Source: Xanthobacter flavus
GTDB lineage: Bacteria; Pseudomonadota; Alphaproteobacteria; Rhizobiales; Xanthobacteraceae
Length of the DNA: 64,000 nucleotides
Assembly: GCF_017875275.1 (NCBI RefSeq)
Contig: NZ_JAGGML010000001.1
Span: 5,167,001 to 5,231,000 of the forward strand
Direction: 5' to 3'
The notes below the pieces were generated by a model. The model saw only the letters and a list, made by a program, of their open reading frames with translations. It was not told where the DNA came from and searched no databases. A program made the position numbers and the translations under genes. Positions 1 through 13,523 of the stretch are shown piece after piece (within the stretch, counting starts at the first letter, position 1; every line of letters begins with the position of its first letter).

Positions 1-1606
1 TGTAGTCCGGAAACACCGAGCCCTTGAGGAAGGCGAACATCGCGCCCGCAAGCCCCGCGAAGGTGCCGGCGACGATGAAGGCCGCCCATTGCATCCGTTG
101 CCGGTTCAGGCCGATGGCCTCGGAGCGCAGCACGCTGTCGCGCACTGCCCGGAGCCCGTAGCCGAACGGCGAGAACACCAGCATCCTGAGCAGGCCGACG
201 CCCACCACCGCGATGCCCAGCGCCAGCCAGAAGAAGCCGGCCGGGCGCGAGGCCCAGGTCGCCGGCCAGATGCCGAGCAGGCCGTTGTCGCCGCCCGTCA
301 CGTCCACCCACTGGAAGGCGATGGACCAGGCGATCTGCGCGAAGGCCAGCGTCAGCATGGCGAAATAGACGCCTGAGAGCCGCACGCAGAACCAGCCGAA
401 CACCACCGCTCCGGCGAGGCCCAGCAGCGGGCCGACGATGAGCGCCGCCTCCATGGGCGCGCCCATGTATTTGACGAGGAAGGCCGCGCCATAGGCGCCG
501 AGGCCGAAATAGGCGGCGTGGCCGAAGGAGGCGAGGCCGCCCACCGTCATCATGAAATGCAGGCTGGCGGCGAACAGCACGTAGATGAGGATTTCCGCGC
601 CCACCGTCAGCGCATAATTGCCGAGGAGGAACGGCAGCGTCGCCGCGGCCAGCACCGCCACCGTCACCGCGACGCGCTCGACCTGCGTGAACGGCCGCCA
701 GGGCCGGATGGTGAGGCCGGCGGCGGCGCGGGGCGCGCTCTCCGGCTTGCCGAACAGTCCCCAGGGCCGCACCACCAGCACCACCGCCATCACCAGGAAC
801 ACGGTGATGAGCGAGATCTGCGGCAGGATGAGAATGCCGAAGGCGTTCAGCTCCGCGACGATGATGGCCGCCACGAAGGCGCCGAACACCGAGCCGAGCC
901 CGCCGATCACCACCACCACGAACACTTCCACGATGATGGAGAGGTCCATCGCATGGGTGACGGTGGTGCGCGGGATCTGCAGCGCGCCGCCGAACGCGGC
1001 GAGGAAGACGCCCAGCGCGAACACGCCGGTGAACAGCCATTTCTGGTTCACGCCCAGCGCCGCGACCATCTCGCGGTCCTGCGTCGCCGCACGCACCAGC
1101 ACGCCCCAGCGGGTCTTGTGGAACAGGAGCCAGAGAATGCCGAGCACCACCGGGCCGAGGGTCATCATGAACAGGTCATAGGTCGGCACCATGCGGCCGA
1201 ACAGGCTGATGGCGCCGGTGAAGCCGGGGGCGCGCGGGCCAAGGAGATCTTCCGGCCCCCAGATCACCACCACGAGGTCCTGCACCATCAGCGTCACGCC
1301 GAAGGTGGCGAGCAGCTGGAAGAGTTCGGGCGCCTGATAGATGCGCCGCAGCAGCACCATCTCCATCAGCGCGCCAAGGATCGCGACGATGATCGCCGCC
1401 GCGACGATGGCGCCCCAGAAGCCGAGGGGGCCGGCGAAGCGCGTCGTCAGCGTGTAGGCCACATAGGCGCCCAGCATGTAGAAGGCGCCATGGGCGAAGT
1501 TCACGATGCGCGTGACGCCGAAGATGATCGACAGCCCCGACGCCACCAGAAACAGCGACGCGGCGCTGGCGAGCCCGCTCAGGGCCTGGACCAGAAGAAA
1601 TTCCAC
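1..1606 (-). CDS. Fused branched-chain-type ABC transporter permease LivH-LivM (partial, runs off left edge)
   Basis: The frame starts at GTG 1606 (MEFLLVQALSG) and stays open, with no stop, to position 1, giving at least 535 codons. Residues 1 to about 287 are a complete LivH-type permease, with the early motif VNFAHGAFYMLGAY and the late motif IGGLGSVFGAFVAA. After a short linker (about 288-305) a LivM-type permease begins, with LASFGHAAYFGLGAYGAA and later AVRDSVLRSEAIGLNRQ. LivH and LivM are usually two proteins, so this is a real fusion of the two inner-membrane subunits. It lies downstream of the binding protein and the 6-hydroxynicotinate reductase operon, and presumably imports a small organic acid such as nicotinate or a ring-cleavage product. 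The substrate is inferred only from context. The ATPase genes livG and livF are not in the window. Confidence 0.9.
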   Translation of the reverse strand, partial: MEFLLVQALSGLASAASLFLVASGLSIIFGVTRIVNFAHGAFYMLGAYVAYTLTTRFAGPLGFWGAIVAAAIIVAILGALMEMVLLRRIYQAPELFQLLATFGVTLMVQDLVVVIWGPEDLLGPRAPGFTGAISLFGRMVPTYDLFMMTLGPVVLGILWLLFHKTRWGVLVRAATQDREMVAALGVNQKWLFTGVFALGVFLAAFGGALQIPRTTVTHAMDLSIIVEVFVVVVIGGLGSVFGAFVAAIIVAELNAFGILILPQISLITVFLVMAVVLVVRPWGLFGKPESAPRAAAGLTIRPWRPFTQVERVAVTVAVLAAATLPFLLGNYALTVGAEILIYVLFAASLHFMMTVGGLASFGHAAYFGLGAYGAAFLVKYMGAPMEAALIVGPLLGLAGAVVFGWFCVRLSGVYFAMLTLAFAQIAWSIAFQWVDVTGGDNGLLGIWPATWASRPAGFFWLALGIAVVGVGLLRMLVFSPFGYGLRAVRDSVLRSEAIGLNRQRMQWAAFIVAGTFAGLAGAMFAFLKGSVFPDY

Positions 1607-1871: not shown

Positions 1872-3068
1872 TCAGTTCGCCGGGCGCAGCTTCGCGGCTT
1901 CGGCTTCCGGCGGCAGGTAGTCGGCGCCGGGGCGGAACTGGAAGTTCACCATGATGCCCTGCCCGTCCTTCTGCGAGGTCGTGCCGATATAGGCGCCCAT
2001 GGTCGACTGGTGGTCGGCCGCCCGGTAGACGACATCGCCGAACGGCGTGGAGACCTTGAGGTTCTTCATCGCCTTGAGGAGGCCGGCGGTGGAGTGGTCG
2101 TCGGTCGCCTTCAGCACCGCCGCGATGGACTTCACGGTCGAGTAGCCGACGATGGAGCCGAGGCGCGGATAGTCCTTGTGGAGCTGCTGGTAGGCGTCGA
2201 GGAACGCCTGGTGCTCGGCGGTCTTGATGCCGTACCAGGGATAGCCGGTGACGATCCAGCCCTCGGGGGTCTCGGTCTTCAGCGGGTCGAGATATTCCGG
2301 CTCGCCGGTGAGATAGCTCACCACCGCGCGGTTCTTGAAGATGCCGCGGGTGTTGCCCTCGCGGACCAGCTTCACGAGGTCGCCGGCGAAGGTGGCGTTG
2401 AGGATGGCGTCGGGATTGGCGGCGTCGATGGCCTGGAGCACCGGGCCGGCGTCGATCTTGCCCAGCGGCGGCCACTGCTCGGCCACGAACTCCACGTCCG
2501 GCTTGCGCTTCTTCAGAAGCTCCTTGAACACCGCGACGAAGGACTGGCCGAACTCATAGTTCGGCGCAATCGTCGCCCAGCGCTTGGCCGGAAGTTTCGC
2601 CGCCTCCTCCGCCAGCATGGCGGCCTGCATGTAGTTGGAGGTGCGCAGGCGGAAGGTGTAGTCGTTGCCCTTCGACCAGACGAGCGCATCGGTGAGCGGC
2701 TCGGCGGCGAGGTACATCACCTGCTTCTGCTTGGCGAAGTCGGCGAGCGCGAGGCCGACGTTGGAGAGGAAGCCGCCCGCGATCATCACCACGCCGTCGC
2801 GCGAGACCAGCTCGTTTGCGGCGGTGAGCGCGTCGGCCGGCTTGCCGCCGTCATCCTTGGTGATGATGACGAGCTTCTTGCCCTTGATGCCGCCGGCGTC
2901 GTTCACTTCCTTCAGCGCCAGATCCATCCCCTTGCGATAGGGATCGAGGAAGGCGGGCAGCGCCGAATAGGAATTGACCTCGCCCACCTTGATCTCGCCC
3001 TGCTGCGCCCGCGCCCCGCCTGCGGCGAGGAGGAGAGCGGCGAGGGATGCCGCGACCAGCTTCTTCAT
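1872..3068 (-). CDS. Periplasmic substrate-binding protein of a Liv-type ABC transporter
   Basis: A 398-residue type-I periplasmic binding protein (LivJ/amide-binding family). It has a clear Sec signal peptide (MKKLVAASLAALLLAAGGARA) and the family pattern: IKVGEVNSYSALPAFLDPYRKGMDLALKEVNDAGGIKGKKL near the N-terminus, then ANELVSRDGVVMIAGG. I chose ATG 3068 rather than the in-frame ATG at 3074 because the AAAAGGGG ribosome binding site is well spaced only for 3068. It lies 53 bp after the second DUF1185 gene and before livHM, so it probably belongs to the leftward nicotinate operon. Ligand specificity cannot be read from the sequence; nicotinate or a pathway acid is a guess from context. Confidence 0.9.
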   Translation of the reverse strand: MKKLVAASLAALLLAAGGARAQQGEIKVGEVNSYSALPAFLDPYRKGMDLALKEVNDAGGIKGKKLVIITKDDGGKPADALTAANELVSRDGVVMIAGGFLSNVGLALADFAKQKQVMYLAAEPLTDALVWSKGNDYTFRLRTSNYMQAAMLAEEAAKLPAKRWATIAPNYEFGQSFVAVFKELLKKRKPDVEFVAEQWPPLGKIDAGPVLQAIDAANPDAILNATFAGDLVKLVREGNTRGIFKNRAVVSYLTGEPEYLDPLKTETPEGWIVTGYPWYGIKTAEHQAFLDAYQQLHKDYPRLGSIVGYSTVKSIAAVLKATDDHSTAGLLKAMKNLKVSTPFGDVVYRAADHQSTMGAYIGTTSQKDGQGIMVNFQFRPGADYLPPEAEAAKLRPAN

Positions 3069-3121
3069 GTCCATTCCCCTTTTATGATCTCACATGAACG
3101 GTTTACGCGCGAGGGCGTGGC

Positions 3122-3706
3122 CTATCTCAGCCCGTCCTCGCCCTTGATCTCACTTGCCTTCAGCCCGCCGACGCGCGGCAGCGGACGGCCGGAATCGGTG
3201 ACCGCGACGGCGACCACGATCTCGTTGGCGCGCGGGGCATCCGACACGCTGACGATCATGCCGTCGAAATGACTGCGCACGAAGGCCGCATCCTTGTGGC
3301 CGAGCGGGATGTCCAGCTCCGCCCCGAGCGAGCCGCGCCGCTTGGACGAGGGGATCAGCGCCGCGCCCTTGCCGAGCACGGCGCGCACCGGCGCGCCCAT
3401 CTTGGGGTGCAGGAGGGCAGCGGCGTGCTCCAGCTCGCCATTCTCGCCCACCAGCGCCGCCTTGCCGTAGCTCTCGGCGGAAGGCCCCTCGATGCCGAGG
3501 GCCTCCACCGCCTTCTGCGCGAGAAGCCCGCCCAGTTCGTCGCCCATGGCGATGAGGTCGGCGAGGTCTTCCACATAGCGGCCGGCGAACGGGTTCTCGA
3601 TCACCGCGATGGCCGCCGCGCGCCGGGTGGGCGGGGAGACGGGGCGGCCCATCTCGGTCCGCGTCTCCTCGACGATGGTGACGATCTTGCGGATGTTCGC
3701 GCTCAT
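3122..3706 (-). CDS. Amino acid synthesis family protein (DUF1185), second tandem copy
   Basis: A 194-residue protein of the DUF1185/AA_synth family, whose biochemical role is not established. It begins MSANIRKIVTIVEETRTE at ATG 3706, whose ATGA overlaps the stop of the upstream paralogue by 4 bp. A longer frame open to 3994 is a shadow of that paralogue. Shared blocks with the sister gene are AVIENPFAGRYVEDLADLI, SYGKAALVGENGELEHAAA, VRSHFDGMIVSVSDAPRANEI and KGEDGLR at the very C-terminus. The tight coupling after hnr, UPF0280 and its paralogue suggests a role in turning over a ring-derived acid or amide. No catalytic residue can be assigned. Confidence 0.88.
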   Translation of the reverse strand: MSANIRKIVTIVEETRTEMGRPVSPPTRRAAAIAVIENPFAGRYVEDLADLIAMGDELGGLLAQKAVEALGIEGPSAESYGKAALVGENGELEHAAALLHPKMGAPVRAVLGKGAALIPSSKRRGSLGAELDIPLGHKDAAFVRSHFDGMIVSVSDAPRANEIVVAVAVTDSGRPLPRVGGLKASEIKGEDGLR

Positions 3707-4287
3707 CGCAGGCCGTCCTCGCCCTTGATGGCCTCCGCCGCGAGGCCGCCGACGCGGGCATGGACGCGGGGGCCGCAGCTCATCACCAGGATGAGGGCGA
3801 TCTCGTCGGCCTTGGGCGCGTCGCTCACCCCAATCTCCATGGCATCGAAATGGGAGCGCACGTAGGAGGCGTTCACATGGGTCACCGGCACGTCGAGCCG
3901 GGTGCCCGGCCCGCCGACCTTCTTGGTGGAGGGCACGATGGCCTTGGCGTCGCCCAGCGCCTCGCGCATGGCGTAGCCGCCCGGCACGTGCCAAAGCGCG
4001 CCGTGCTCGATCTCGCCGGCGGCGCCGACGATGGCGCCCTTGCCGTAGCCGTCGATGGCCTTGGCGTCACCGCCCAGCGCGGCAAGGAGTTCCTTGGCCA
4101 TGGCGGCGCCCAGCGGCTTCAGGTCCTCCATGAAGCCGGCGATGTCTTCCACATAGCGGCCGGCGAACGGGTTCTCGATCACCGCCACGATGGCGCCGCG
4201 CTTGCGCGGGGTGGCGACGGCGGGGCCGCCCTCGTGGAAGATCTCCTCCAGGATGCGGACCTGCTTGCGGATCTTGACCTCAGGCAT
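3703..4287 (-). CDS. Amino acid synthesis family protein (DUF1185), first tandem copy
   Basis: A 194-residue DUF1185/AA_synth protein (MPEVKIRKQVRILEEIFHEG) and tandem paralogue of the gene at 3122-3706. The two have the same length, conserve AVIENPFAGRYVEDI, DGYGKGAIVGAAGEIEHGA and VRSHFDAMEIGVSDAPKADEI, and both end in IKGEDGLR. The start overlaps the UPF0280 stop by 8 bp and the end overlaps its sister by 4 bp, so the three are almost certainly translated from one message. Two diverged copies of equal length side by side suggest either a hetero-oligomer or two successive related substrates. This is inference, since the family is uncharacterised. Confidence 0.88.
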   Translation of the reverse strand: MPEVKIRKQVRILEEIFHEGGPAVATPRKRGAIVAVIENPFAGRYVEDIAGFMEDLKPLGAAMAKELLAALGGDAKAIDGYGKGAIVGAAGEIEHGALWHVPGGYAMREALGDAKAIVPSTKKVGGPGTRLDVPVTHVNASYVRSHFDAMEIGVSDAPKADEIALILVMSCGPRVHARVGGLAAEAIKGEDGLR

Positions 4288-5269
4288 GGGCGGCGCCTCT
4301 TTCTTGTTCTGCGGCGAGGGTTATCGGAGCAAGGGTAATCGGAGGGGATGACAGGCCGACATCCCCCAGAGGACAGGTTGAGACGCTGGCGCCCTGCAGA
4401 TGCAGCGCGGCGGCGGTGATGAGGCCGCGCGCCACCAGCGCGCCGGCCACCGCGAGCCCTTCGGCCAGCGCCTCGTCCCGCTCGGCGGGGGTCAGATCCG
4501 GAACGTGGCGCGTCACCTTCAGCAGGCCGAGATCGCTGTCGGGGAGCACCTCGCGCGCCGGCACCCGGACGATGCCGGGATGGGCGGGCAGGTTCACCGC
4601 ATTGGCGATGACGCTCGCCGCCGCATCAGCCGCCGCGGCAGTCGGCGCGAGCACGGTCACGGCATCGGCGATGCCGAGCGAGAAACTGCGTCCGCGCCAG
4701 CCGGAGGTGGCGATGCCGCGCACCGGGCCATTGGCCGTGATGCGGGCGGAGCCCACCACGCGGGGGCGGTCCGGCCTGTCCACGATGCCCGCCACCAATT
4801 CGGCGCCGGGGGCGAGATAGAGCGCGATATCCCCGCCATTGTTGACGAAGGCGCGGGTGAGGCCCGGCCGCACCATGGCGGAGAGCACCTCTTCCGCCAC
4901 GGCGCCGGCAACCGCCGCCATGGGGGTGATGAAACCGGCGCGCGCATGGGGCGACACCGCCGCCCACATGCGCCGCGCCACCGGACCCTGAAGGGGGCAA
5001 GGCCCGGGATGGGCGGGGCGGCGGAGCAGGGACAGCTCGCCGCACAGGATATCCAGAAGGCCGGCGAGGCGATGCGTCGCCGCGCCATAGGCGCAGGCCA
5101 CCACATCCGCCGGGCCATCGGCCTCGATCACGAGATCGATGGGACCGTCATTGAGATGCAGCCGGCGCCCGTCCGCCAGCAGCCCCGCCTGCGGCAGGCG
5201 CCGCTGCACCGGCATGGCGGGAACCGCTGCCCGGGGTGCTAGAGGGGGGATGTCGGCCGGGCGCAGCAT
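4280..5269 (-). CDS. UPF0280 family protein (ApbE-like fold)
   Basis: A 329-residue UPF0280 protein, a family related in fold to the FMN transferase ApbE but of unknown function. Typical blocks are FITPMAAVAGAVAEEVL, RAFVNNGGDIALYL and GPVRGIATSGWRGRSFSLGIADAVTVLA, followed by an Ala-rich stretch [16 protein letters not shown]. It starts 4 bp after the hnr stop and overlaps the next gene by 8 bp, so it is in the hnr operon. One speculative idea is a cofactor or flavin-related service to the neighbouring reductase. I did not find a clear ApbE target motif (D-x-x-S-G-A-T) in Hnr, so this stays open. Membership of the family is confident; function is not. Confidence 0.88.
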   Translation of the reverse strand: MLRPADIPPLAPRAAVPAMPVQRRLPQAGLLADGRRLHLNDGPIDLVIEADGPADVVACAYGAATHRLAGLLDILCGELSLLRRPAHPGPCPLQGPVARRMWAAVSPHARAGFITPMAAVAGAVAEEVLSAMVRPGLTRAFVNNGGDIALYLAPGAELVAGIVDRPDRPRVVGSARITANGPVRGIATSGWRGRSFSLGIADAVTVLAPTAAAADAAASVIANAVNLPAHPGIVRVPAREVLPDSDLGLLKVTRHVPDLTPAERDEALAEGLAVAGALVARGLITAAALHLQGASVSTCPLGDVGLSSPPITLAPITLAAEQERGAAHA

Positions 5270-5273
5270 GGTC

Positions 5274-6755
5274 TCAGCCCTGCGACCGGGTGGAAAGCGG
5301 CCACGGAATATCGGAGAAGGGCGCCATCTCGCGCACCGCCTCGCGCTCGATCACCGAGGCGGCGGGGCGCACATGGTCCATGTGGCCACCGAGCGCCTCA
5401 TAGGCGGCGAGCGGCAGCGTGAATTCGATGGGGGCCACCAGCGCGGGGGTGGGCACATAGCCGAAGCCGTGCTCCGGCACGCGCGTCACGTCCACCATGA
5501 AGGTGATGCCGCCGCCCGGCCAGACATAGACCGGCGCGCCGCCGCAGGTGACGCGAGTGATGGAATCCTTCACCGAGCGGGTCAGCCGCACGGGATTTTC
5601 CGTCACCCCCGCCCGCAGCGAACCGCCCGCCCCGGCCATGAACAGCACGGAGGAGAGGGCCGGCTCGCAATTCTCGCGGATGCGCTCGACGGAGGGATAG
5701 AGATCAGCGGGGACTTCGGTTTCCACCGGCACCAGGTTCTCGTCGAGAACGTAATAGCCGTAATGCTCGCCGGTGGTGGAGACGAGCAGCAGGCGCAGGC
5801 CCGGCCACGCCAGCTTCGCGTCGAACGCGCCGAGAATGGAGAGCGGATCGGAAATGTTGGTGCCGCCCCAGCCGAGGCCGGGCTCGGCCACCTGGAAATA
5901 GCGGCCGGGCGTGGAGCGGCGGCCCTTCATGCGGATGCCGGTGTCGCGGATGCCGAGGAGCTTGCCGGCCTGATGCTCGGAGAGGACGCCGGTGATGTGG
6001 TCGTCCACGACCACCACTTCGTCCACCTTGCCATGCCACTGCTTGGCGAACATGCCGATGGTGGCGGAGCCGCAGCCCACCCGCATGCGCGCCTCTTCCG
6101 CGCCGTTCACGATGGGCGGCTTGCCGGCCTGCACGACAAGCTTCGCGCCACCATCGATGGCTAATTCCACGGCCTTGCCGTTGCACAGCTCCAGCAGGGC
6201 ATCGCAGGTGACGCGGCCTTCCTTCTTGGAGCCGCCGGTAAGGTGATGCACGCCGCCGAGCGAGAGCATCTGCGAGCCGTATTCGGAGGTGGTGACATGG
6301 CCCACCGCCTCGCCATCCACCCGCACCGCAGCCTGTTCGGGGCCGATGAAGCGGTCGGTGTCGATCTTCACCTTCGCGCCGGCATAGCTGAAGATGCCCT
6401 CGGTGACGACGGTCACCATGTCCACGCCGTTCACCTCGGCGGAGACGATGAAGGGCGCGGGCTTGTAGTCCGGATAGGTGGTGCCGGAACCCACGGCGGT
6501 GACGAAGGATTCGCCGCCCGCCACGAGGCGCCCGTCCCAGTCGCCGCCCCGGTCGAAGGGCACCACCTTGCCGCCCTGCGCCAGCGTGCGGTCGAGCACG
6601 ATGTGGGGATCGACGCGGATCAGCTCGCCGTCGCGGTTGGCGTAGCGGTCGCAGGCGCCGGTGAGGCCGGGCCGGATGTAGCACATGACCGGGCACGCAT
6701 CGCAGCGGATCTTGTCATCCTCGGCGCGGGCAGTGATGGTGGGCTCTTGGGCCAT
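5274..6755 (-). CDS. hnr: 6-hydroxynicotinate reductase
   Basis: A 493-residue homologue of the 6-hydroxynicotinate reductase first described in Eubacterium barkeri. That enzyme reduces the 6-hydroxynicotinate ring to 1,4,5,6-tetrahydro-6-oxonicotinate with low-potential electrons. The N-terminus carries C18-x2-C21-x3-C25-x9-C35 (CDACPVMCYIRPGLTGAC), a likely iron-sulfur ligand set. The rest of the chain has many Gly-rich blocks such as SEYGSQMLSLGGVHHLTGGS and RMRVGCGSATIGMFAKQ. It is the first gene of a leftward operon followed by UPF0280, two DUF1185 genes and a Liv-type transporter. It diverges from the nicotinate dehydrogenase genes across a 330-bp promoter gap. The family call is from recognition of the protein and from context (enamidase and nicotinate dehydrogenase nearby). 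Confidence 0.85.
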   Translation of the reverse strand: MAQEPTITARAEDDKIRCDACPVMCYIRPGLTGACDRYANRDGELIRVDPHIVLDRTLAQGGKVVPFDRGGDWDGRLVAGGESFVTAVGSGTTYPDYKPAPFIVSAEVNGVDMVTVVTEGIFSYAGAKVKIDTDRFIGPEQAAVRVDGEAVGHVTTSEYGSQMLSLGGVHHLTGGSKKEGRVTCDALLELCNGKAVELAIDGGAKLVVQAGKPPIVNGAEEARMRVGCGSATIGMFAKQWHGKVDEVVVVDDHITGVLSEHQAGKLLGIRDTGIRMKGRRSTPGRYFQVAEPGLGWGGTNISDPLSILGAFDAKLAWPGLRLLLVSTTGEHYGYYVLDENLVPVETEVPADLYPSVERIRENCEPALSSVLFMAGAGGSLRAGVTENPVRLTRSVKDSITRVTCGGAPVYVWPGGGITFMVDVTRVPEHGFGYVPTPALVAPIEFTLPLAAYEALGGHMDHVRPAASVIEREAVREMAPFSDIPWPLSTRSQG

Positions 6756-6793
6756 GGAACCTTTAGCTCCGGCCCCGCGACGGGGCCAACCGA

Positions 6794-6838
6794 TTTCATA
6801 TGTACACTAATGAAAATCGGGACGGACCAAAGTGTCAA
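6794..6838 (-). promoter_or_regulatory. Putative hnr promoter with operator A
   Basis: Read leftward, TTGACA (6838-6833) is followed after 17 bp by TTTCAT (6815-6810), a 4-of-6 match to a -10 box. The element TTTCATATGTACACTAA (6794-6810, plus strand) sits directly on and after the -10. It forms a dyad CATATGTACACTAATG (6797-6812), within a wider repeat of CCGAT and ATCGG arms. Its position over the start region suggests repressor binding. The same element recurs upstream of the ferredoxin reductase gene (one mismatch in 17), with looser relatives before the other two units. Confidence 0.65.
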
Positions 6839-6967
6839 GCACAAGGAACGGGCAGGCCGCACCAATAGGCAGCATTGCTGACACATCCTTCGCAAAGCAG
6901 CATTTTTGGTGCACCGCATCGCCCGTCGGTACCGGTCGGCAGCCTCTGTTTTAGGCGGGCCTCGCGC

Positions 6968-6998
6968 TTGACGATGATTTATTAGTGTAGAAACAATC
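6968..6998 (+). promoter_or_regulatory. Putative nicotinate dehydrogenase promoter with operator B
   Basis: TTGACG (6968-6973) and AACAAT (6992-6997) are separated by 18 bp, about 90 bp before the small-subunit gene. The interval holds the core TTAGTGTA (6982-6989), the reverse complement of TACACTAA in sites A and C. It sits within a loose palindrome with ends GATT (6976-6979) and AATC (6995-6998). The element overlaps the promoter spacer, as a repressor site would. The -10 assignment is weak. Confidence 0.55.
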
Positions 6999-7085
6999 TA
7001 GCCCGTTGCGCGTCGGCGCCGGTCCCGGTGTCGTTCCCGTTCTTGTTTCCGTTCTCTTGCGGCAAAGGCTGAGCGGCCCCCGAAG

Positions 7086-7571
7086 ATGTCCGCCTCCATC
7101 CTACTCCAGGTCAACGGCGAAACCCACGCCTTCGCGCTGCCCCGCGAGACGCCGCTGATCTACGTGCTGCGCAACGATCTCGGGCTGAACGGTCCCAAGT
7201 TCGGCTGCGGTCTCGGGGAGTGCGGGGCCTGCACGGTGCTGATGGACGGCCGCGCCACGCGCTCCTGCGTCACCACCCTCGGCACGGCCGAGGGTCGCGC
7301 GGTGACGACGCTCGAGGGGCTCGCGACGCAGGGCACGCTGCACCCGGTGCAGGCCGCCTTCATCGCCGAGCAGGCGGCCCAGTGCGGCTATTGTCTCAAC
7401 GGCATGATCATGACCACCGTCGCCTTCCTCGCCCGCAACCCCGCCCCCACCGAGGCCGAAGCCCGCGCCGCGCTGCGCTACAATTTGTGCCGCTGCGGGA
7501 CGCATGTGGAGATCCTGCGCGCGGTGCTGCGCGCGGCGGCCGGCTCAGGTGAAGCGGAGGCCCAGCCGTGA
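7086..7571 (+). CDS. Nicotinate dehydrogenase small subunit, (2Fe-2S) protein
   Basis: A 161-residue xanthine-dehydrogenase-family iron-sulfur subunit. The plant-type [2Fe-2S] cluster is ligated by C41, C46, C49 and C61 (GCGLGECGACTVLMDG). The second cluster is in the helical domain, C100-x2-C103 with C135-x-C137 (CGYCLNGM and LCRCGTH). It passes electrons from the molybdenum site of the partner to cytochrome c. The stop overlaps the GTG of the large-subunit gene by 3 bp, so the two are translationally coupled. The two-subunit layout (small FeS plus Mo-cytochrome c fusion) is that of NicA/NicB of Pseudomonas putida, which hydroxylates nicotinate at C6. Substrate is inferred from the adjacent hnr and enamidase. 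Confidence 0.88.
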   Translation: MSASILLQVNGETHAFALPRETPLIYVLRNDLGLNGPKFGCGLGECGACTVLMDGRATRSCVTTLGTAEGRAVTTLEGLATQGTLHPVQAAFIAEQAAQCGYCLNGMIMTTVAFLARNPAPTEAEARAALRYNLCRCGTHVEILRAVLRAAAGSGEAEAQP

Positions 7572-10500
7572 GCGAGCCGCGGCCCGATCCCGCGGCGCTC
7601 CTCGCCGCCAGTGGCAATCTCGCCATCCTGCGGCCGGCGCAGGTGGTGCACGGCCTCGTGCCGAGCGCAGCGCCGAAGGAGGGCGCCCTCGACCTTTTCC
7701 TGCTGGTGGACGACACCGGCACCGTCACCGCCTTCAACGGCCATGTGGACCTCGGTACCGGCATCCGCACGGCGCTGGCCCAGATCGTCGCCGAGGAGCT
7801 GGATGTGACGCTCGATCGCGTCACCATGGTGCTCGGGCATACGGGAGTCGCGCCCAACCAGGGCGGCACCATCGCCTCCGATTCCATCCAGGTCTCCGCC
7901 CGCCCGCTGCGCCATGCGGCGGCGCAGGCCCGCGCCCATCTGGTCGGGCTCGCGGCCGAGGTGCTCGCTATTCCCGCAGACGAGCTTGAGGTGGAGGAAG
8001 GCATCGTCCGTCCGAAGGATGGCCGCAACACCGGCCTCTCCTACGCCGATCTGCTCAAGGGCCGCGCCGACCGGCTGATGCTCCATCAGGAAACGGCGGT
8101 GAAGCCGGCGCGCGAGCACCGCATCGTCGGCCGCCGCGTGCCGCGCGTGGATATTCCGGCCAAGGCGACGGGCACCTTCACCTATGTCCACGACGTGCGC
8201 GTGCCGGGCATGCTGCACGGTCGCGTGGTGCGCCCACCCTATGCCGGCATCGATGCCGGCCCGTTCGTCGGCAAGAGCCTGATCCGGGTGGACGAGCACT
8301 CCGTCGCGCATATTCCCGGCGTGGTGGCGGTGGTCACCATGGGCGACTTCATCGGCATCGTCGCCGAGCGCGAGGAGCAGGCCGCCGAGGCCGCCCGCGT
8401 GCTGAAGACCGAGTGGCGCGACACCCCTGCCCTCCCCGACCTCTCCAACACCGAGCAGGCCCTGCGCGGGGCGGAGAAGGCCAAGACGCGGCTCCTCCAC
8501 GAGCAGGGCAATCTGGACGCCGCCCGCGCCGACGCCGCGCAGGTGCTTGAGGCGACCTATGTCTGGCCCTACCAGATGCACGCCTCCATCGGCCCCTCCT
8601 GCGCCGTCGCCGACGTGCGCGAGGACAGCGCCACCATCTGGGCGGGCACGCAGAACCCCTATTGGCTACGCACCGACATCTCCGTCCTGCTCGGGCTGCC
8701 CGAGGAGGACATCGAGGTCATCCGCTTCGAGGCGGCGGGCTGCTACGGCCGCAACTGCGCCGACGACGTGGCGGCCGACGCCGCGCTCCTCTCCCGTGCC
8801 GTCGGCCGGCCGGTGCGCGTGCAGCTCACCCGCGAGCAGGAGCATGCCTGGGAGCCCAAGGGCGCCGGCCAGCTCATGGAGGTGAAGGGCGGCATCAACG
8901 CGGACGGCACGCCGGCCTTCTACGATTTCCTCACCCGCTACCCCTCCAACGCCGCCGTCACCCTCGCGCTGCTGCTCACCGGCCGCGTGCCGGCGGACAA
9001 TCCCATCTATGAGATGGGCGACCGCACGGCCATCCCGCCCTATGCCTATGACGTGATGCGCGTGGCGGTGGACGATGTGGCCCCCATCGTGCGCGCCTCC
9101 TGGCTGCGCGGCGTCTCGGCCTTGCCCAACAGCTTCGCCCACGAGAGCTATGTGGACGAACTGGCCGCCGCGGCCGGCGTCGATCCGGTGGATTATCGCC
9201 TGCGCCACCTGCACGACGCGCGCGCGGTGGACCTCGTGAAGGCCACCGCCGAGCGCGCCGGCTGGGTCAAGCGCACCGGGCCACGGCAGGAGGTGGTGGA
9301 GGGCGACATCGTGCGCGGGCAGGGCTTCGCCTATGCCCTTTATGTCCACTCCAAATTCCCCGGCTACGGCGCCGCCTGGTCCGCCTGGGTGGCGGATGTG
9401 GAGGTGAACAGAGCGACCGGCGACGTGGCGGTGAAGCGCGTCACTGTCGGCCAGGATTCCGGGCTGATGATCAACCCGGCCGGCATCGAGCACCAGATCC
9501 ACGGCAACGTCATCCAGTCCACCTCCCGCGCGCTGAAGGAGCAGGTGACGTTCGACGAAAAGGCCGTCACCAGCCGGGAATGGGGCGCCTACCCCATCCT
9601 CACCTTCCCGGAAGTGCCGGTCATCAACGTGGTGCTGATGCCCCGGCCGGATGACCCGCCCCTGGGCTCGGGCGAATCCGCCTCGGTGCCCAGCGCGGCG
9701 GCCATCGCCAATGCCATCTTCGACGCCACCGGCGTGCGCCTGCGCGAACCGCCCTTCACGCCGGACCGCGTGCGCGCGGCGCTGGCCGGCGAGGCCCCGC
9801 CCCGGCCGGTGAAGGAGAAGACCCGCAGACCGTGGCTCGCGATGGCGGGTGCGGCGCTTGCAGGTGCCTTGGGCATGGCGACGCTGGCGCTGCCCATCCG
9901 TGGCGCCATCGCGCCCATCGCCCCGCCCGATCCCGCAACCTTCTCCGCGGACATGATCGCACGCGGCAAGGTGCTGGCGGCGCTGGGGGATTGCGCGGTC
10001 TGCCACACGGCCGACGGCGGCATCGCCAATGCCGGCGGGCGGCCGCTGCACACGCCCTTCGGCACGGTCTATTCCACCAATCTCACGCCGGACGTGGCGA
10101 CGGGCATCGGCGGCTGGTCCTATGCCGCCTTCGAGCGCGCCATGCGCGAGGGCATCGGACGCGACGGGCGGCACCTCTACCCGGCCTTCCCCTACACCGC
10201 CTTCAGCCGCATCAGCGATGCCGACATGCAGGCGCTCTATGCCTTCCTCATGTCGCAGCCGGCGGTGACGGCGGCGGCGCCCGACAACCGGATGACCTTC
10301 CCCTTCAATATCCGCCCGCTGATGGCCGGCTGGAACCTGCTGTTCCATCGTCCCGGCCAGCTTCAGGCGGAGCCTGTACAGTCCCCCCAGTGGAACCGGG
10401 GGCGCTACCTCGTGGAGGGCCTCGGCCATTGCGGCGCCTGCCACACACCGCGCAATGCGCTGGGCGCGGAGAAGACAGGCGCGGCCTACCTTGCCGGCGG

Positions 10501-11116
10501 CTTTGCCGATGGCTGGGAGGCGCCGGCCCTCACGGAGCTGTCGAAGGCGCCCATTCCCTGGACGGAGGACGAACTTTTCACCTATCTGCGCACCGGATTC
10601 TCCCGCTTCCACGGCACCGCCGCCGGCCCCATGGCGCCGGTGGTGCATGCGCTGAAGGAGGTGCCCGACGCGGATGTCCGGGCCATGGCGGTCTATCTCG
10701 CCTCGCTCTCGGGGCCGGCCGTGGCCGATGCGGCGGCCACCGCCGCGACGCTGGAGGCCAGGGCCGAGGCCTCGCTCCGCCCCATGGACAGTGTGGGCGG
10801 GCGCCTGTTCGCCGGCGCCTGCGCCGCGTGCCATGCGCCGGAAGGACCGACGCTGTTCGGCGCGCGGCCGGCGCTGGCGCTGAACACCAATGTCCATGCC
10901 GTGCGGCCGGACAATCTCATTCGCGTCATACTCGAAGGCATCCCCAAGCCCGCCGCCCCGGAGTTGGGCGACATGCCCGCCTTCCGCGACAGCCTCGATA
11001 ACGCGCAGGTGGCCGACCTCGTGCGCTACATGCGCGCCAAGTTCGCGCCCGATGCCCCGGTGTGGGAGGGGCTGGAGGGCACGGTGGCGAGATTGCGGGC
11101 GGCACCGACGCACTGA
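7568..11116 (+). CDS. Nicotinate dehydrogenase large subunit: molybdopterin domain fused to triheme cytochrome c
   Basis: An 1182-residue protein. Residues 1 to about 740 are a xanthine-oxidase-type molybdopterin-binding region, ending in GSGES (catalytic-type Glu703) and AAAIANAIFDATGVRLREPPF. A hydrophobic stretch at about 756-778 (LAMAGAALAGALGMATLALPI) can anchor or export the tail. The C-terminal third carries three heme-c motifs: CAVCH at 809, CGACH at 955 and CAACH at 1085. This matches NicB of Pseudomonas putida, so electrons from nicotinate hydroxylation should enter the respiratory chain through cytochrome c rather than NAD. GTG start at 7568 overlaps the upstream stop. Other aldehyde or isoquinoline dehydrogenases share this architecture, so the nicotinate assignment depends on the cluster. 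Confidence 0.87.
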   Translation: MSEPRPDPAALLAASGNLAILRPAQVVHGLVPSAAPKEGALDLFLLVDDTGTVTAFNGHVDLGTGIRTALAQIVAEELDVTLDRVTMVLGHTGVAPNQGGTIASDSIQVSARPLRHAAAQARAHLVGLAAEVLAIPADELEVEEGIVRPKDGRNTGLSYADLLKGRADRLMLHQETAVKPAREHRIVGRRVPRVDIPAKATGTFTYVHDVRVPGMLHGRVVRPPYAGIDAGPFVGKSLIRVDEHSVAHIPGVVAVVTMGDFIGIVAEREEQAAEAARVLKTEWRDTPALPDLSNTEQALRGAEKAKTRLLHEQGNLDAARADAAQVLEATYVWPYQMHASIGPSCAVADVREDSATIWAGTQNPYWLRTDISVLLGLPEEDIEVIRFEAAGCYGRNCADDVAADAALLSRAVGRPVRVQLTREQEHAWEPKGAGQLMEVKGGINADGTPAFYDFLTRYPSNAAVTLALLLTGRVPADNPIYEMGDRTAIPPYAYDVMRVAVDDVAPIVRASWLRGVSALPNSFAHESYVDELAAAAGVDPVDYRLRHLHDARAVDLVKATAERAGWVKRTGPRQEVVEGDIVRGQGFAYALYVHSKFPGYGAAWSAWVADVEVNRATGDVAVKRVTVGQDSGLMINPAGIEHQIHGNVIQSTSRALKEQVTFDEKAVTSREWGAYPILTFPEVPVINVVLMPRPDDPPLGSGESASVPSAAAIANAIFDATGVRLREPPFTPDRVRAALAGEAPPRPVKEKTRRPWLAMAGAALAGALGMATLALPIRGAIAPIAPPDPATFSADMIARGKVLAALGDCAVCHTADGGIANAGGRPLHTPFGTVYSTNLTPDVATGIGGWSYAAFERAMREGIGRDGRHLYPAFPYTAFSRISDADMQALYAFLMSQPAVTAAAPDNRMTFPFNIRPLMAGWNLLFHRPGQLQAEPVQSPQWNRGRYLVEGLGHCGACHTPRNALGAEKTGAAYLAGGFADGWEAPALTELSKAPIPWTEDELFTYLRTGFSRFHGTAAGPMAPVVHALKEVPDADVRAMAVYLASLSGPAVADAAATAATLEARAEASLRPMDSVGGRLFAGACAACHAPEGPTLFGARPALALNTNVHAVRPDNLIRVILEGIPKPAAPELGDMPAFRDSLDNAQVADLVRYMRAKFAPDAPVWEGLEGTVARLRAAPTH

Positions 11117-11147
11117 GGTTGAGCGCGGGCCAATCTTCTTGCGTACC

Positions 11148-11258
11148 GTCATGCCCCGGCTTGTCCGGGGCATCCACTCGGCCATTCGCCGGCCGCATGA
11201 TGCCCGGCAGCCAGCCCCGCCACACCGTGGATCCCCCGGACAAGCCGGGGGATGACGG
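11148..11258. repeat. Dispersed paired-hairpin repeat, copy 1
   Basis: Two hairpins face each other across about 49 bp: GTCATGCCCCGGCTTGTCC with its pairing arm (11148-11177) and GTGGATCCCCCGGACAAGCC with its arm (11227-11256). The outer ends are mutual reverse complements. Copies 2 (26068-26153) and 3 (53663-53771) share the plan while stem bases vary in a compensated way. Confidence 0.85.
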
Positions 11259-11343
11259 GAGTTGAATGAATGGGCGGCCCTCACCTGCCCAAAATATCCC
11301 GCTCCGCTGCCCAAAAGAGCCGCATCCATTCCCCGCCAAGCCG

Positions 11344-11387
11344 TTGACAGTCTTCGCGGGCCGACTCTATTTTCATTTGTACACTAA
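11344..11387 (+). promoter_or_regulatory. Putative ferredoxin reductase promoter with operator C
   Basis: TTGACA (11344-11349) and TATTTT (11368-11373) are spaced by 18 bp. TTTCATTTGTACACTAA (11371-11387) follows immediately, a 16-of-17 match to operator A. The geometry (-35, -10, then operator near the start site) is the same as at hnr. It lies about 60 bp before the chosen ATG, so the ferredoxin reductase has its own promoter under the shared control. Confidence 0.65.
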
Positions 11388-11445
11388 CAATCTCCTGCGG
11401 CCGCGACGGTGGCCTCGCAGCCGCCCGAACCTTCCGAGCCTGAAG

Positions 11446-12219
11446 ATGAGCAATTTCTTCGAGGAGCAGGTGCTCAGCGTCCATCACTGGACCGACCGCC
11501 TGTTCAGCTTCACCACCACCCGCGACCCCGGCTTCCGCTTCCGGACCGGCGAATTCACCATGATCGGCCTGAAGGTGGATGGCCGGCCGCTGCTGCGCGC
11601 CTATTCGGTGGTGAGCCCGGCCTGGGCGGAGACGCTGGAATTCTTCTCCATCAAGGTGCCCAACGGCCCCCTCACCTCGCGCCTCCAGCACATCAAGGTG
11701 GGCGATGCGATCACGGTGGGCCGCAAGGCGACCGGCACGCTGGTGATGGACAATCTCCTGCCCGGCAAGACCCTCTACCTTCTCGGCACGGGCACGGGCC
11801 TCGCGCCCTTCCTCTCGGTGATCCGCGATCCGGAGACCTACGAGCGGTTCGAGAAGGTGGTGCTCGTCCACGGCTGCCGGCACGTGGCGGACCTCGCCTA
11901 TGAGGATCTCATCACCAACGAGTTGCCCGCCCACGAATTCCTCGGCGAGGAGATCGCGGCCAAGCTGCTCTATTACCCGACCGTGACGCGCGAGCCCTTC
12001 CGCAACACGGGCCGCATCTCCACCCTGCTGGACAGCGGCAAGCTCTGCGCGGACGTGGGCCTGCCGCCGCTGGATGCCGCCACCGACCGCGTGATGATCT
12101 GCGGCTCGCCGGCCATGATGGTGGATTTGAAGACCCTTCTGGAATCGCGCGGCTTCGCCGAGGGCTCGGGCAGCGAGCCGGGCCATTTCGTCATTGAAAA
12201 GGCATTCGCCGAGCGCTGA
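11446..12219 (+). CDS. fpr: Ferredoxin--NADP reductase
   Basis: A 257-residue FAD-containing ferredoxin/flavodoxin-NADP reductase of the bacterial Fpr type. ATG 11446 (MSNFFEEQVLSVHHWTDRLFSF) gives the usual family length; upstream in-frame codons run through promoter and repeat DNA and are rejected. The FAD motif is RAYSVVSPAW. The NADP region includes LLGTGTGLAPFLSVIRDP and VHGCRH, then MICGSPAM, and the C-terminus is FVIEKAFAER. It has its own putative promoter with operator C and lies between nicotinate dehydrogenase and enamidase. The likely task is to make reduced ferredoxin from NADPH for 6-hydroxynicotinate reductase. The family is clear; the pathway role is inferred from location and the shared operator. 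Confidence 0.88.
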   Translation: MSNFFEEQVLSVHHWTDRLFSFTTTRDPGFRFRTGEFTMIGLKVDGRPLLRAYSVVSPAWAETLEFFSIKVPNGPLTSRLQHIKVGDAITVGRKATGTLVMDNLLPGKTLYLLGTGTGLAPFLSVIRDPETYERFEKVVLVHGCRHVADLAYEDLITNELPAHEFLGEEIAAKLLYYPTVTREPFRNTGRISTLLDSGKLCADVGLPPLDAATDRVMICGSPAMMVDLKTLLESRGFAEGSGSEPGHFVIEKAFAER

Positions 12220-12237
12220 AATCCGCCCCGCGCCCGG

Positions 12238-12280
12238 TTTTCAGCAGCCCGGCGCGGGCGTAAACTTCATATGCCTACAA
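12238..12280 (+). promoter_or_regulatory. Putative enamidase promoter with weaker operator D
   Basis: TTTTCA (12238-12243) and TAAACT (12261-12266) are 17 bp apart, each a 4-of-6 match to consensus. TTCATATGCCTACAA (12266-12280) follows and resembles operator A with two extra bases before TACA. The position after the -10 box fits sites A and C. It is the least conserved of the four. Confidence 0.4.
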
Positions 12281-12323
12281 ACAGAAAGGCGCGCGTCGCC
12301 GCGCCCCCTCCGGAGACGAGAGC

Positions 12324-13523
12324 ATGGCCCACGACGCGCCAACCGGTCCCGCCGGCCCCACCAAGCTGGTGATCCGCAACATCGGCCTTCTCCTCAGCGG
12401 CGACCTCACAAAGCCCATTCTGGACGCCGACACGGTGGTGGCGCTGGACGGGCGCATCACCGCCATCGGCCGCGAGAAGGACGTGGACACCGAAGGCGCG
12501 ACCACGCTTATCGACGCCAACGGCACCACGCTGACCCCCGGCCTCATCGACAGCCACGTCCACCCCGTGGCGGGCGACTGGACGCCGCGCCAGAGCCAGA
12601 TCAACTGGATCGATTCCTCCCTCCACGGCGGCGTCACCACCATGATCTCGGCCGGCGAGGTGCATTATCCCGGCCGCGCCCGGGACGTGGTGGGCGTGAA
12701 GGCCCTCGCCATCACCGCCCAGCGCGCCTTCTCGGCCTTCCGCCCTTCCGGCGTGAAGGTCCATGCAGGTGCCCCCGTCATCGAGAACGAGATGGTGGAG
12801 GATGATTTCAAGGAACTGGCCGCCGCCGGCGTGAAGCTGCTCGGCGAGGTCGGCCTCGGCGGCGTGAAGGACGGCCCCACCGCCCGCAAGATGGTGGGAT
12901 GGGCGCGCAAGTACGGCATCCAGTCCACGATCCACACGGGAGGCCCCTCCATCCCCGGCTCCGGCCTCATCGACAAGGACGTGGTGCTGGAGGCGGACAC
13001 GGACGTGGTCGGCCATATCAATGGCGGCCACACCGCGCTGCCGGACAACCAGATCCGCTGCATCTGCGAGGGCTGCAAGCGCGGCCTCGAGATCGTCCAT
13101 AACGGCAACGAGCGCTCTGCCCTCTACACGCTGCGCCTCGCCCGTGAACTGGGCGAACTCCAGCGCGTCATCCTCGGCACGGACGGGCCGGCCGGCTCGG
13201 GCGTCCAGCCGCTGGGCATCCTGCGCATGGTCTCCATGCTCTCCTCCCTCGGCGAGTTGCCGGCGGAGGAGGCCTTCTGCCTTGCCACCGGCAACACGGC
13301 GCGCATGCGGGCGCTCGATTCCGGCCTGATCGAGGTGGGGCGCGCGGCGGACTTCGTGCTGATGGACAAGGCCCAGCATTCGCCCGCCACCACGCTGCTG
13401 GACAGCGTGCGCCTCGGCGACCTGCCGGGCGTGTGCATGACCATCATCGACGGCATCGTGCGCACCCAGCGCTCGCGCAATACGCCGCCCGCCACGCGCA
13501 TGCCGATTGTCGTGAAGGGCTGA
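12324..13523 (+). CDS. ena: Enamidase (amidohydrolase superfamily), opens the tetrahydro-oxonicotinate ring
   Basis: A 399-residue metal-dependent amidohydrolase resembling enamidase of Eubacterium barkeri, which hydrolyses 1,4,5,6-tetrahydro-6-oxonicotinate to 2-formylglutarate and ammonia. Visible features are the metal motif H78-V-H80 (PGLIDSHVHP), Glu175 in GEVGLGG as a candidate bridging carboxylate, IHTGGPSIPG, VGHINGGHTAL, and GTDGPAG near the end. It has its own RBS (GGAGACGAG) and a putative promoter with a weak operator. With nicotinate dehydrogenase and hnr it completes the steps from nicotinate to the open-chain product. Genes for further steps are not recognised here. The C-terminus faces the EamA gene with only 5 bp between. 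Confidence 0.85.
   Translation: MAHDAPTGPAGPTKLVIRNIGLLLSGDLTKPILDADTVVALDGRITAIGREKDVDTEGATTLIDANGTTLTPGLIDSHVHPVAGDWTPRQSQINWIDSSLHGGVTTMISAGEVHYPGRARDVVGVKALAITAQRAFSAFRPSGVKVHAGAPVIENEMVEDDFKELAAAGVKLLGEVGLGGVKDGPTARKMVGWARKYGIQSTIHTGGPSIPGSGLIDKDVVLEADTDVVGHINGGHTALPDNQIRCICEGCKRGLEIVHNGNERSALYTLRLARELGELQRVILGTDGPAGSGVQPLGILRMVSMLSSLGELPAEEAFCLATGNTARMRALDSGLIEVGRAADFVLMDKAQHSPATTLLDSVRLGDLPGVCMTIIDGIVRTQRSRNTPPATRMPIVVKG

Follow-up and report, generated by a model that had tools for sequence, protein, structure and literature searches.

Probable genes for nicotinate uptake and reductive ring opening in Xanthobacter flavus, and a UPF0280 companion of the 6-hydroxynicotinate reductase homologue

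The DNA examined here (the window) is a stretch of 64,000 nucleotides from Xanthobacter flavus (assembly GCF_017875275.1, contig NZ_JAGGML010000001.1, positions 5,167,001 to 5,231,000, forward strand). A gene cluster near its start very probably serves to take up nicotinate and to carry out the first three steps of its catabolism along the pathway described for Azorhizobium caulinodans. Its central enzymes are a hydroxylase of the NicAB type, a homologue of 6-hydroxynicotinate reductase (Hnr) and an enamidase (Ena). The gene directly behind hnr encodes a UPF0280 (COG2122) protein, and the two families were found in the same genomes in both genome samples searched.

Proposed pathway

NicAB would oxidise nicotinate to 6-hydroxynicotinate, its c-type haems carrying the electrons on to the respiratory chain. 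Hnr would then reduce 6-hydroxynicotinate to 1,4,5,6-tetrahydro-6-oxonicotinate (THON), with electrons probably drawn from NADPH via a ferredoxin-NADP-reductase-like (FNR-like) flavoprotein, and hydrolysis of the tetrahydro-oxonicotinate ring by the enamidase would release ammonia and 2-formylglutarate. This sequence of intermediates was adopted because of the enzyme families and the A. caulinodans pathway. What the sequence itself shows is which genes are present, how they are arranged and to what they are homologous, together with the synteny and the constant company of Hnr with UPF0280; we infer the substrates and the electron flow, the maturation of Hnr by UPF0280 and an action of the DUF1185 proteins on ring-opened aldehyde intermediates.

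Genome G026, which we take to be probably that of A. caulinodans ORS571, contains the genes for the MarR-like regulator, the substrate-binding protein, both DUF1185 proteins, UPF0280, Hnr, NicA, NicB, the FNR-like protein and Ena in the order and orientation of the window, at 66-88% identity; this comparison did not recover EamA, the gene that follows in the window. The nicotinate chemistry of A. caulinodans was reportedly described by Kitts in 1989 and 1992. That work is cited in a passage of PMC3511419, and the pathway is also treated in part of PMC9304392. According to the passages of PMC3511419 on these clusters, the same cluster occurs in A. caulinodans (AZC_2804 to AZC_2790), Bradyrhizobium, R. 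palustris and SG-6C (Figure 4 there); the clusters were found with that of Eubacterium barkeri, and the route is given as a reduction to THON. The preliminary description had proposed a mixed oxidative and reductive route in an aerobe. This is supported by the homology of the three enzymes and the gene-for-gene synteny with G026; it is not new, having already been published.

Related loci were collected by a contig scan with Hnr peptide patterns, which gave at least 584 stretches with an Hnr relative; the best 80 (70-97% identity) were kept. Scanning with such patterns favours close relatives. The nearest named locus by Hnr, among these best 80 of at least 584, was that of Xanthobacter aminoxidans (97% identical). 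Together with six plasmid loci the 80 scan loci form a set of 86.

Hydroxylase and enamidase

Molybdenum and iron-sulfur subunits of the nicotinate dehydrogenase type with a triheme tail, as well as homologues of Hnr and enamidase, had been claimed in the preliminary description, and all were recovered: a NicAB-type molybdenum and [2Fe-2S] hydroxylase by domains and motifs, Hnr by the annotation of plasmid homologues, and the enamidase by the match to its solved structure. The large subunit NicB contains MoCoBD_1, MoCoBD_2 and cytochrome c domains (Pfam), CXXCH motifs at residues 809, 955 and 1085, and a single GxGE at 700. A hydrophobic stretch at 757-775, between the molybdenum and haem parts, has a mean hydropathy of 1.86. 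It is only likely to be a membrane anchor, because a stretch inside the molybdenum part reaches a similar value (1.72). The small subunit NicA has Fer2 and Fer2_2 domains with eight cysteines, the two [2Fe-2S] domains of a NicAB enzyme. The molybdenum-binding subunit, the GxGE motif and the C-terminal triheme cytochrome likewise agree with this type, no gene for an FAD subunit adjoins, and the gene pair is flanked by hnr and the gene for the FNR-like protein.

Comparison with the enzymes of E. barkeri, as suggested in the preliminary description, gave a match of the enamidase to the solved structure 2VUN with an E-value of 2.3e-110 (372.6 bits, query residues 13-393). The homology is full-length, and HVH, GEVGLG, HTGG, HINGG and the D of G.D.P.G stand in both proteins; these HxH, E, H, H and D positions are presumably the metal ligands.

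Hnr

The Hnr proteins were aligned in two sets, each including that of the window: A1 adds 17 of the 19 loci L010-L028, without L014 and L016, and A2 adds 33 of the 80 scan loci. Cysteines 18, 21, 25, 35, 184, 228 and 363 were invariant in 34 of 34 aligned proteins, and a single N-terminal motif accounts for four of these; three further cysteines (125, 191 and 404) were common, not invariant. The E. barkeri enzyme reportedly carries a covalent flavin (abstract of Alhapel 2006). The SG-6C homologue is given as 42% identical to the E. barkeri enzyme in the section of PMC3511419 that treats it.

Homologues 62-73% identical to Hnr were found in 26 of 72,556 plasmid records, 12 of them from Sulfitobacter. 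Seventeen are annotated as 6-hydroxynicotinate reductase and three as hypothetical; four records have no feature under the match and two carry no annotation. The structure model of Hnr was poor (mean pLDDT 62.9), and with it Foldseek gave no match to known folds at E <= 0.001 and VIA no row above Z 3.0. Of the 34 Hnr members, 33 gave weak Pfam matches to GCV_T_C (E 0.0013 at best); these rest on related rows. A kinship of Hnr to DUF39 was considered and dropped, since no DUF39 Pfam family was among the matches of the 34 members at E <= 10, and a comparison of Hnr with UPF0280 revealed no kinship. In locus L161 (genome G076, about 1023-2458) hnr is broken into two frames at about residue 240, which either a frame change or a sequencing error could account for; a UPF0280 and a DUF1185 gene adjoin.

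UPF0280 as companion of Hnr

Hnr and UPF0280 were sought in sets of the same size with the same genome handles, namely 61 relatives and 397 Pseudomonadota. Hnr was present in 22 of the 61 and 38 of the 397, and UPF0280 (NF003322 above cut-off) also in 22 and 38, the same genomes each time. The Hnr-positive genomes fall into 12 of 48 and 20 of 232 genera; the co-occurrences are not independent events, because the genomes are related. In two further genomes, which lack Hnr, UPF0280 was matched only below the cut-off (G296, E 8.2e-5; G375, E 3.7e-4).

Of the 86 loci, 82 had room to judge the arrangement, and in 80 of these UPF0280 immediately follows hnr in the same orientation. It stood about 8 kb from hnr in L093; in the genome of L078 it was present, its frame open to its own stop, at a place not within 10 kb of hnr. 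In the draft genome G020 (74% complete) the DUF1185 genes follow hnr directly and UPF0280 is on another contig. Six locus genomes were checked for UPF0280: four had it above cut-off, L081 had a fragment and L068 none, and the contigs of L081 and L068 break off no more than 150 bases past hnr.

No statement of a pairing of UPF0280 with Hnr was found in the open-licence literature, judged by titles, and the term UPF0280 does not occur in the main text of PMC3511419. The pairing goes beyond what was found in print. Its presence in every Pseudomonadota genome of the two samples that has either family above cut-off makes the function of an orphan family of ApbE fold testable.

Possible function of UPF0280

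The model of UPF0280 was good (pLDDT 88.1) and matched DVU1097 (2O34) with Z 20.0 (rmsd 3.4 over 215 residues) and the ApbE flavin transferase 1VRM with Z 15.7 (rmsd 3.1 over 213 residues); the next family, uricase, followed at Z 7.9. An ApbE fold is predicted on this basis. A Pfam ApbE match was obtained for 21 of 32 UPF0280 members at E <= 10 (best 1.4e-5), the members being those of alignment A3 (the window and 31 of 78 UPF0280 frames).

The ApbE family itself (PF02424) was above cut-off in 37 of the 59 genomes with both Hnr and UPF0280; the 22 others include the window's own genome and G026. Sub-threshold PF02424 matches of G026, G031 and G206 fall inside their own UPF0280 genes. If G026 is A. 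caulinodans, then no ApbE-like protein besides UPF0280 would have been detected in that organism. The window's own genome gave no PF02424 match; 12 of the 13 congeners searched (G001-G013) have at least one.

PMC12052999 gives Asp285, Ser241 and His257 as the catalytic set of ApbE from Vibrio cholerae, and D-x-x-[S/T]-G-A-[S/T] as the motif of ApbE targets. Ser189 and Asp215 of UPF0280, taken to match Ser241 and Asp285, were kept in 32 of 32 proteins. Against flavin attachment, the position aligned to the catalytic histidine holds Leu in 26 of the 32 and has no His in any of them, in a profile alignment that is weak (probability 12%, E 0.0025). Against a plain ApbE reaction, the canonical flavinylation motif was present in none of the 18 Hnr proteins of A1 and none of the 34 of A2. 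The Hnr stretch nearest to it, GTTYPDYKPAP, occurs in all of A1 and A2, the rows of A2 having been found with patterns from that stretch.

In the DUF39 pathway, as passages of PMC5764234 report, COG2122 is needed for homocysteine synthesis together with DUF39 and a NIL/ferredoxin protein, its homology to ApbE seems not to reach the flavin-binding region, and others have proposed a role in persulfide modification. A redox-enzyme maturation role fits both the Hnr and the DUF39 settings, and flavin attachment is one form of such a role. Tentatively, UPF0280 might be a dedicated maturation enzyme of Hnr that most likely installs or secures the flavin by a variant ApbE chemistry that dispenses with the catalytic His and uses a non-canonical site, for which Thr92/Thr93 are candidates. 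Flavin attachment is treated as a hypothesis here because UPF0280 lacks the ApbE catalytic His and Hnr the ApbE target motif. If it is true, the same activity would explain the need for COG2122 in the DUF39/ferredoxin homocysteine pathway, and give one role to a family of unknown function.

DUF1185 proteins

The solved relatives of the DUF1185 proteins, 2QTP and 3BYQ, have a chorismate-mutase-like fold and no known function according to the part of PMC2954203 that describes them. The homologue TgnF stimulates the oxidation of succinic semialdehyde in Acinetobacter baylyi, as stated in a passage of PMC7913881 that cites a source on trigonelline breakdown. DUF1185 was present in 30 of the 61 relatives: every one of the 22 that have Hnr, and 8 that do not. 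It therefore has other roles as well. As a guess, the proteins act on ring-opened aldehyde intermediates. A third DUF1185 gene of the window's own genome (G000:C1:1008474-1009001) is far from the locus.

Exchange of front and back enzymes

In the 80 scan loci tblastn found UPF0280 in 77, DUF1185-2 in 72, NicA in 71, the molybdenum subunit in 73 (including weak matches to the FAD-type enzyme), the cytochrome tail in 53, Ena in 47 and FNR in 38; these are lower bounds, as many contigs end early. The substrate-binding protein was matched in 62 of the 80, sometimes weakly.

The hydroxylase of the 86 loci was of the cytochrome type in 58 and of an FAD type resembling xanthine dehydrogenase in 19, with 9 uncalled. 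Ena was the ring opener in 50 loci, seven had HyuAB without Ena, and neither was within reach in 29. The HyuA/HyuB proteins (oxoprolinase family; L098, L103, L107, L108, L139, L142 and L143) are a possible other ring opener, and the DUF1185 genes are retained in loci that have them. An FNR-like gene lay within 1.5 kb of ena in 37 of the 50 loci having ena, and 4 of the other 13 have less than 1.8 kb of room. Among loci with full flanks it was seen in 34 of 44 of the cytochrome type, 3 of 11 of the FAD type and 1 of 6 uncalled, counted at the locus and not genome-wide.

On a quick Hnr tree the hydroxylase type changed at least five times, two of these changes being forced by well-supported branches, and the ring opener at least twice. 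The minimum for the hydroxylase was still five without the very long row L141; the trees retain L064 and L092, whose hnr genes have a single stop each.

A gene for a Rieske-type ring-hydroxylating oxygenase, perhaps acting on an upstream compound that yields nicotinate, stands between the DUF1185 and ABC transporter genes of the marine plasmids L139, L140 and L144, and also in L106. In the 29 kb examined of the Pleomorphomonas plasmid L142 no hydroxylase gene was seen; hnr and UPF0280 are accompanied there by a single DUF1185 gene, a MarR-type gene and genes resembling HyuA/HyuB.

Alternative readings

Some points limit the proposed pathway. The Hnr core is joined elsewhere to an FAD-type hydroxylase, or to HyuAB with no enamidase in reach, and so may serve more than one pyridine. 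The cysteine count of Hnr (seven invariant, three common) seems low for an enzyme with one [2Fe-2S] cluster and two [4Fe-4S] clusters, the set reported for that of E. barkeri. Sequence comparison with the E. barkeri and P. putida enzymes covered the enamidase (2VUN) only.

That the cluster breaks down another N-heterocycle, such as another pyridine carboxylate, with nicotinate not the natural substrate, would suit the variation of front and back enzymes between lineages round a constant core and the extra Rieske-type oxygenase gene of the three marine plasmid loci. The synteny with G026 and the use of nicotinate by SG-6C, which has the same cluster and forms 6-hydroxynicotinate transiently according to a section of PMC3511419, speak against it, and we consider it unlikely. 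It is very improbable that 6-hydroxynicotinate is opened by an oxidative P. putida route encoded elsewhere, with hnr and ena accessory: a first enzyme of the NicAB type is common to both routes, but the own genome (searched as a single contig of 5,354,025 bases) has no match to PF02073, to which we take the NicX dioxygenase to be related (detection of NicX by this model was unchecked and NicC was not searched for), and the NicB-type cytochrome tail, Hnr and Ena are combined in 38 of the 86 loci, with many of the rest truncated. Nicotinate catabolism through THON is the reading retained.

Layout of the locus

The interval 3122-13523, as delimited in the preliminary description, is correct: it runs from the end of the last DUF1185 gene to the end of the enamidase gene (Table 1). 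Beyond the genes listed there earlier it contains two DUF1185/AA_synth genes, UPF0280 and the FNR-like gene. Outside it lie the gene for the ABC substrate-binding protein and, upstream, a permease, transporter ATPase-like frames and a MarR-like regulator, the last three named from translations. The four minus-strand genes of the interval are closely packed, with a gap of 4 bases between hnr and UPF0280 and overlaps of 8 (UPF0280 and DUF1185-1) and 4 bases (DUF1185-1 and DUF1185-2).

Table 1. Genes of the cluster, in window positions. L145 is a stretch reaching upstream of the window (window position = L145 position - 12000).
Feature	Position	Strand	Evidence and remarks
ABC transporter permease, branched-chain amino acid type	1..1606	-	Cut by window start, gene continues upstream; ORF L145 11723-13606; named from translation
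Periplasmic substrate-binding protein of ABC transporter, candidate nicotinate importer	1872..3074	-	PF13458 4.9e-67
AA_synth/DUF1185 protein 2	3122..3706	-	PF06684 1.6e-72; 2QTP E 1.1e-83; start 3706 (ATG) read from translation
AA_synth/DUF1185 protein 1	3703..4287	-	PF06684 8.2e-73
UPF0280 (COG2122) protein, predicted ApbE fold	4280..5269	-	NF003322 397.9 bits, cut-off 290
6-Hydroxynicotinate reductase homologue (Hnr)	5274..6755	-	Plasmid homologue annotations; no Pfam family at E <= 0.001
NicA-type 2x[2Fe-2S] subunit	7086..7571	+	PF01799 (Fer2_2) 9.8e-28, PF00111 (Fer2) 3.4e-6; eight Cys
NicB-type molybdopterin subunit, hydrophobic stretch and three c-type haem motifs	7568..11116	+	PF20256, PF02738, PF00034, PF13442; CXXCH x3, GxGE
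FNR-like flavoprotein, candidate electron supply for Hnr	11446..12219	+	NF008178 173.9 bits, below cut-off 390; start chosen from translation
Enamidase (amidohydrolase), Ena	12324..13523	+	2VUN, E 2.3e-110

Sixteen further long reading frames of the window gave no Pfam match at E <= 1e-10 pointing to the nicotinate pathway; glutarate enzymes were not specifically searched. Eight were matched (permease, TonB receptor, M23 peptidase, DUF900, helicase, GGDEF, SIS/GATase and hexapeptide/NTP transferase), and the remaining eight may be non-coding. Upstream of the MarR-like gene, L145 6994-9609 holds AhpF-like and peroxiredoxin-like frames with a LysR-type frame adjoining, all named from translations.

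Comparison with known systems

The nicotinate fermentation cluster of E. barkeri, reportedly described by Alhapel in 2006, shares Hnr and the enamidase with the present locus, whereas the first enzyme here is of the cytochrome-linked NicAB type with no FAD subunit gene adjoining. NicAB of P. putida resembles the present hydroxylase in its two subunits, one [2Fe-2S] and one molybdenum-binding with three c haem motifs; here it is joined to reductive, not oxidative, ring-opening genes. The swap of front-end and ring-opening enzymes round a constant reductive core suggests how a pathway that was originally found in an anaerobe came to work in aerobes. UPF0280 is like the ApbE flavin transferases in predicted fold and in the Ser and Asp positions, and differs in having no His at the position aligned to the catalytic one. 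COG2122 goes with a ferredoxin-like protein in the DUF39 homocysteine pathway, as part of PMC5764234 describes it, while its companion here is Hnr, without Pfam sign of DUF39 kinship. PMC3511419 presents the nicotinate degradation cluster for A. caulinodans, Bradyrhizobium, R. palustris and SG-6C, and G026 has ten of its genes in the order of the window; the present copy is in Xanthobacter, and the locus is an added Xanthobacter example of that published nicotinate cluster.

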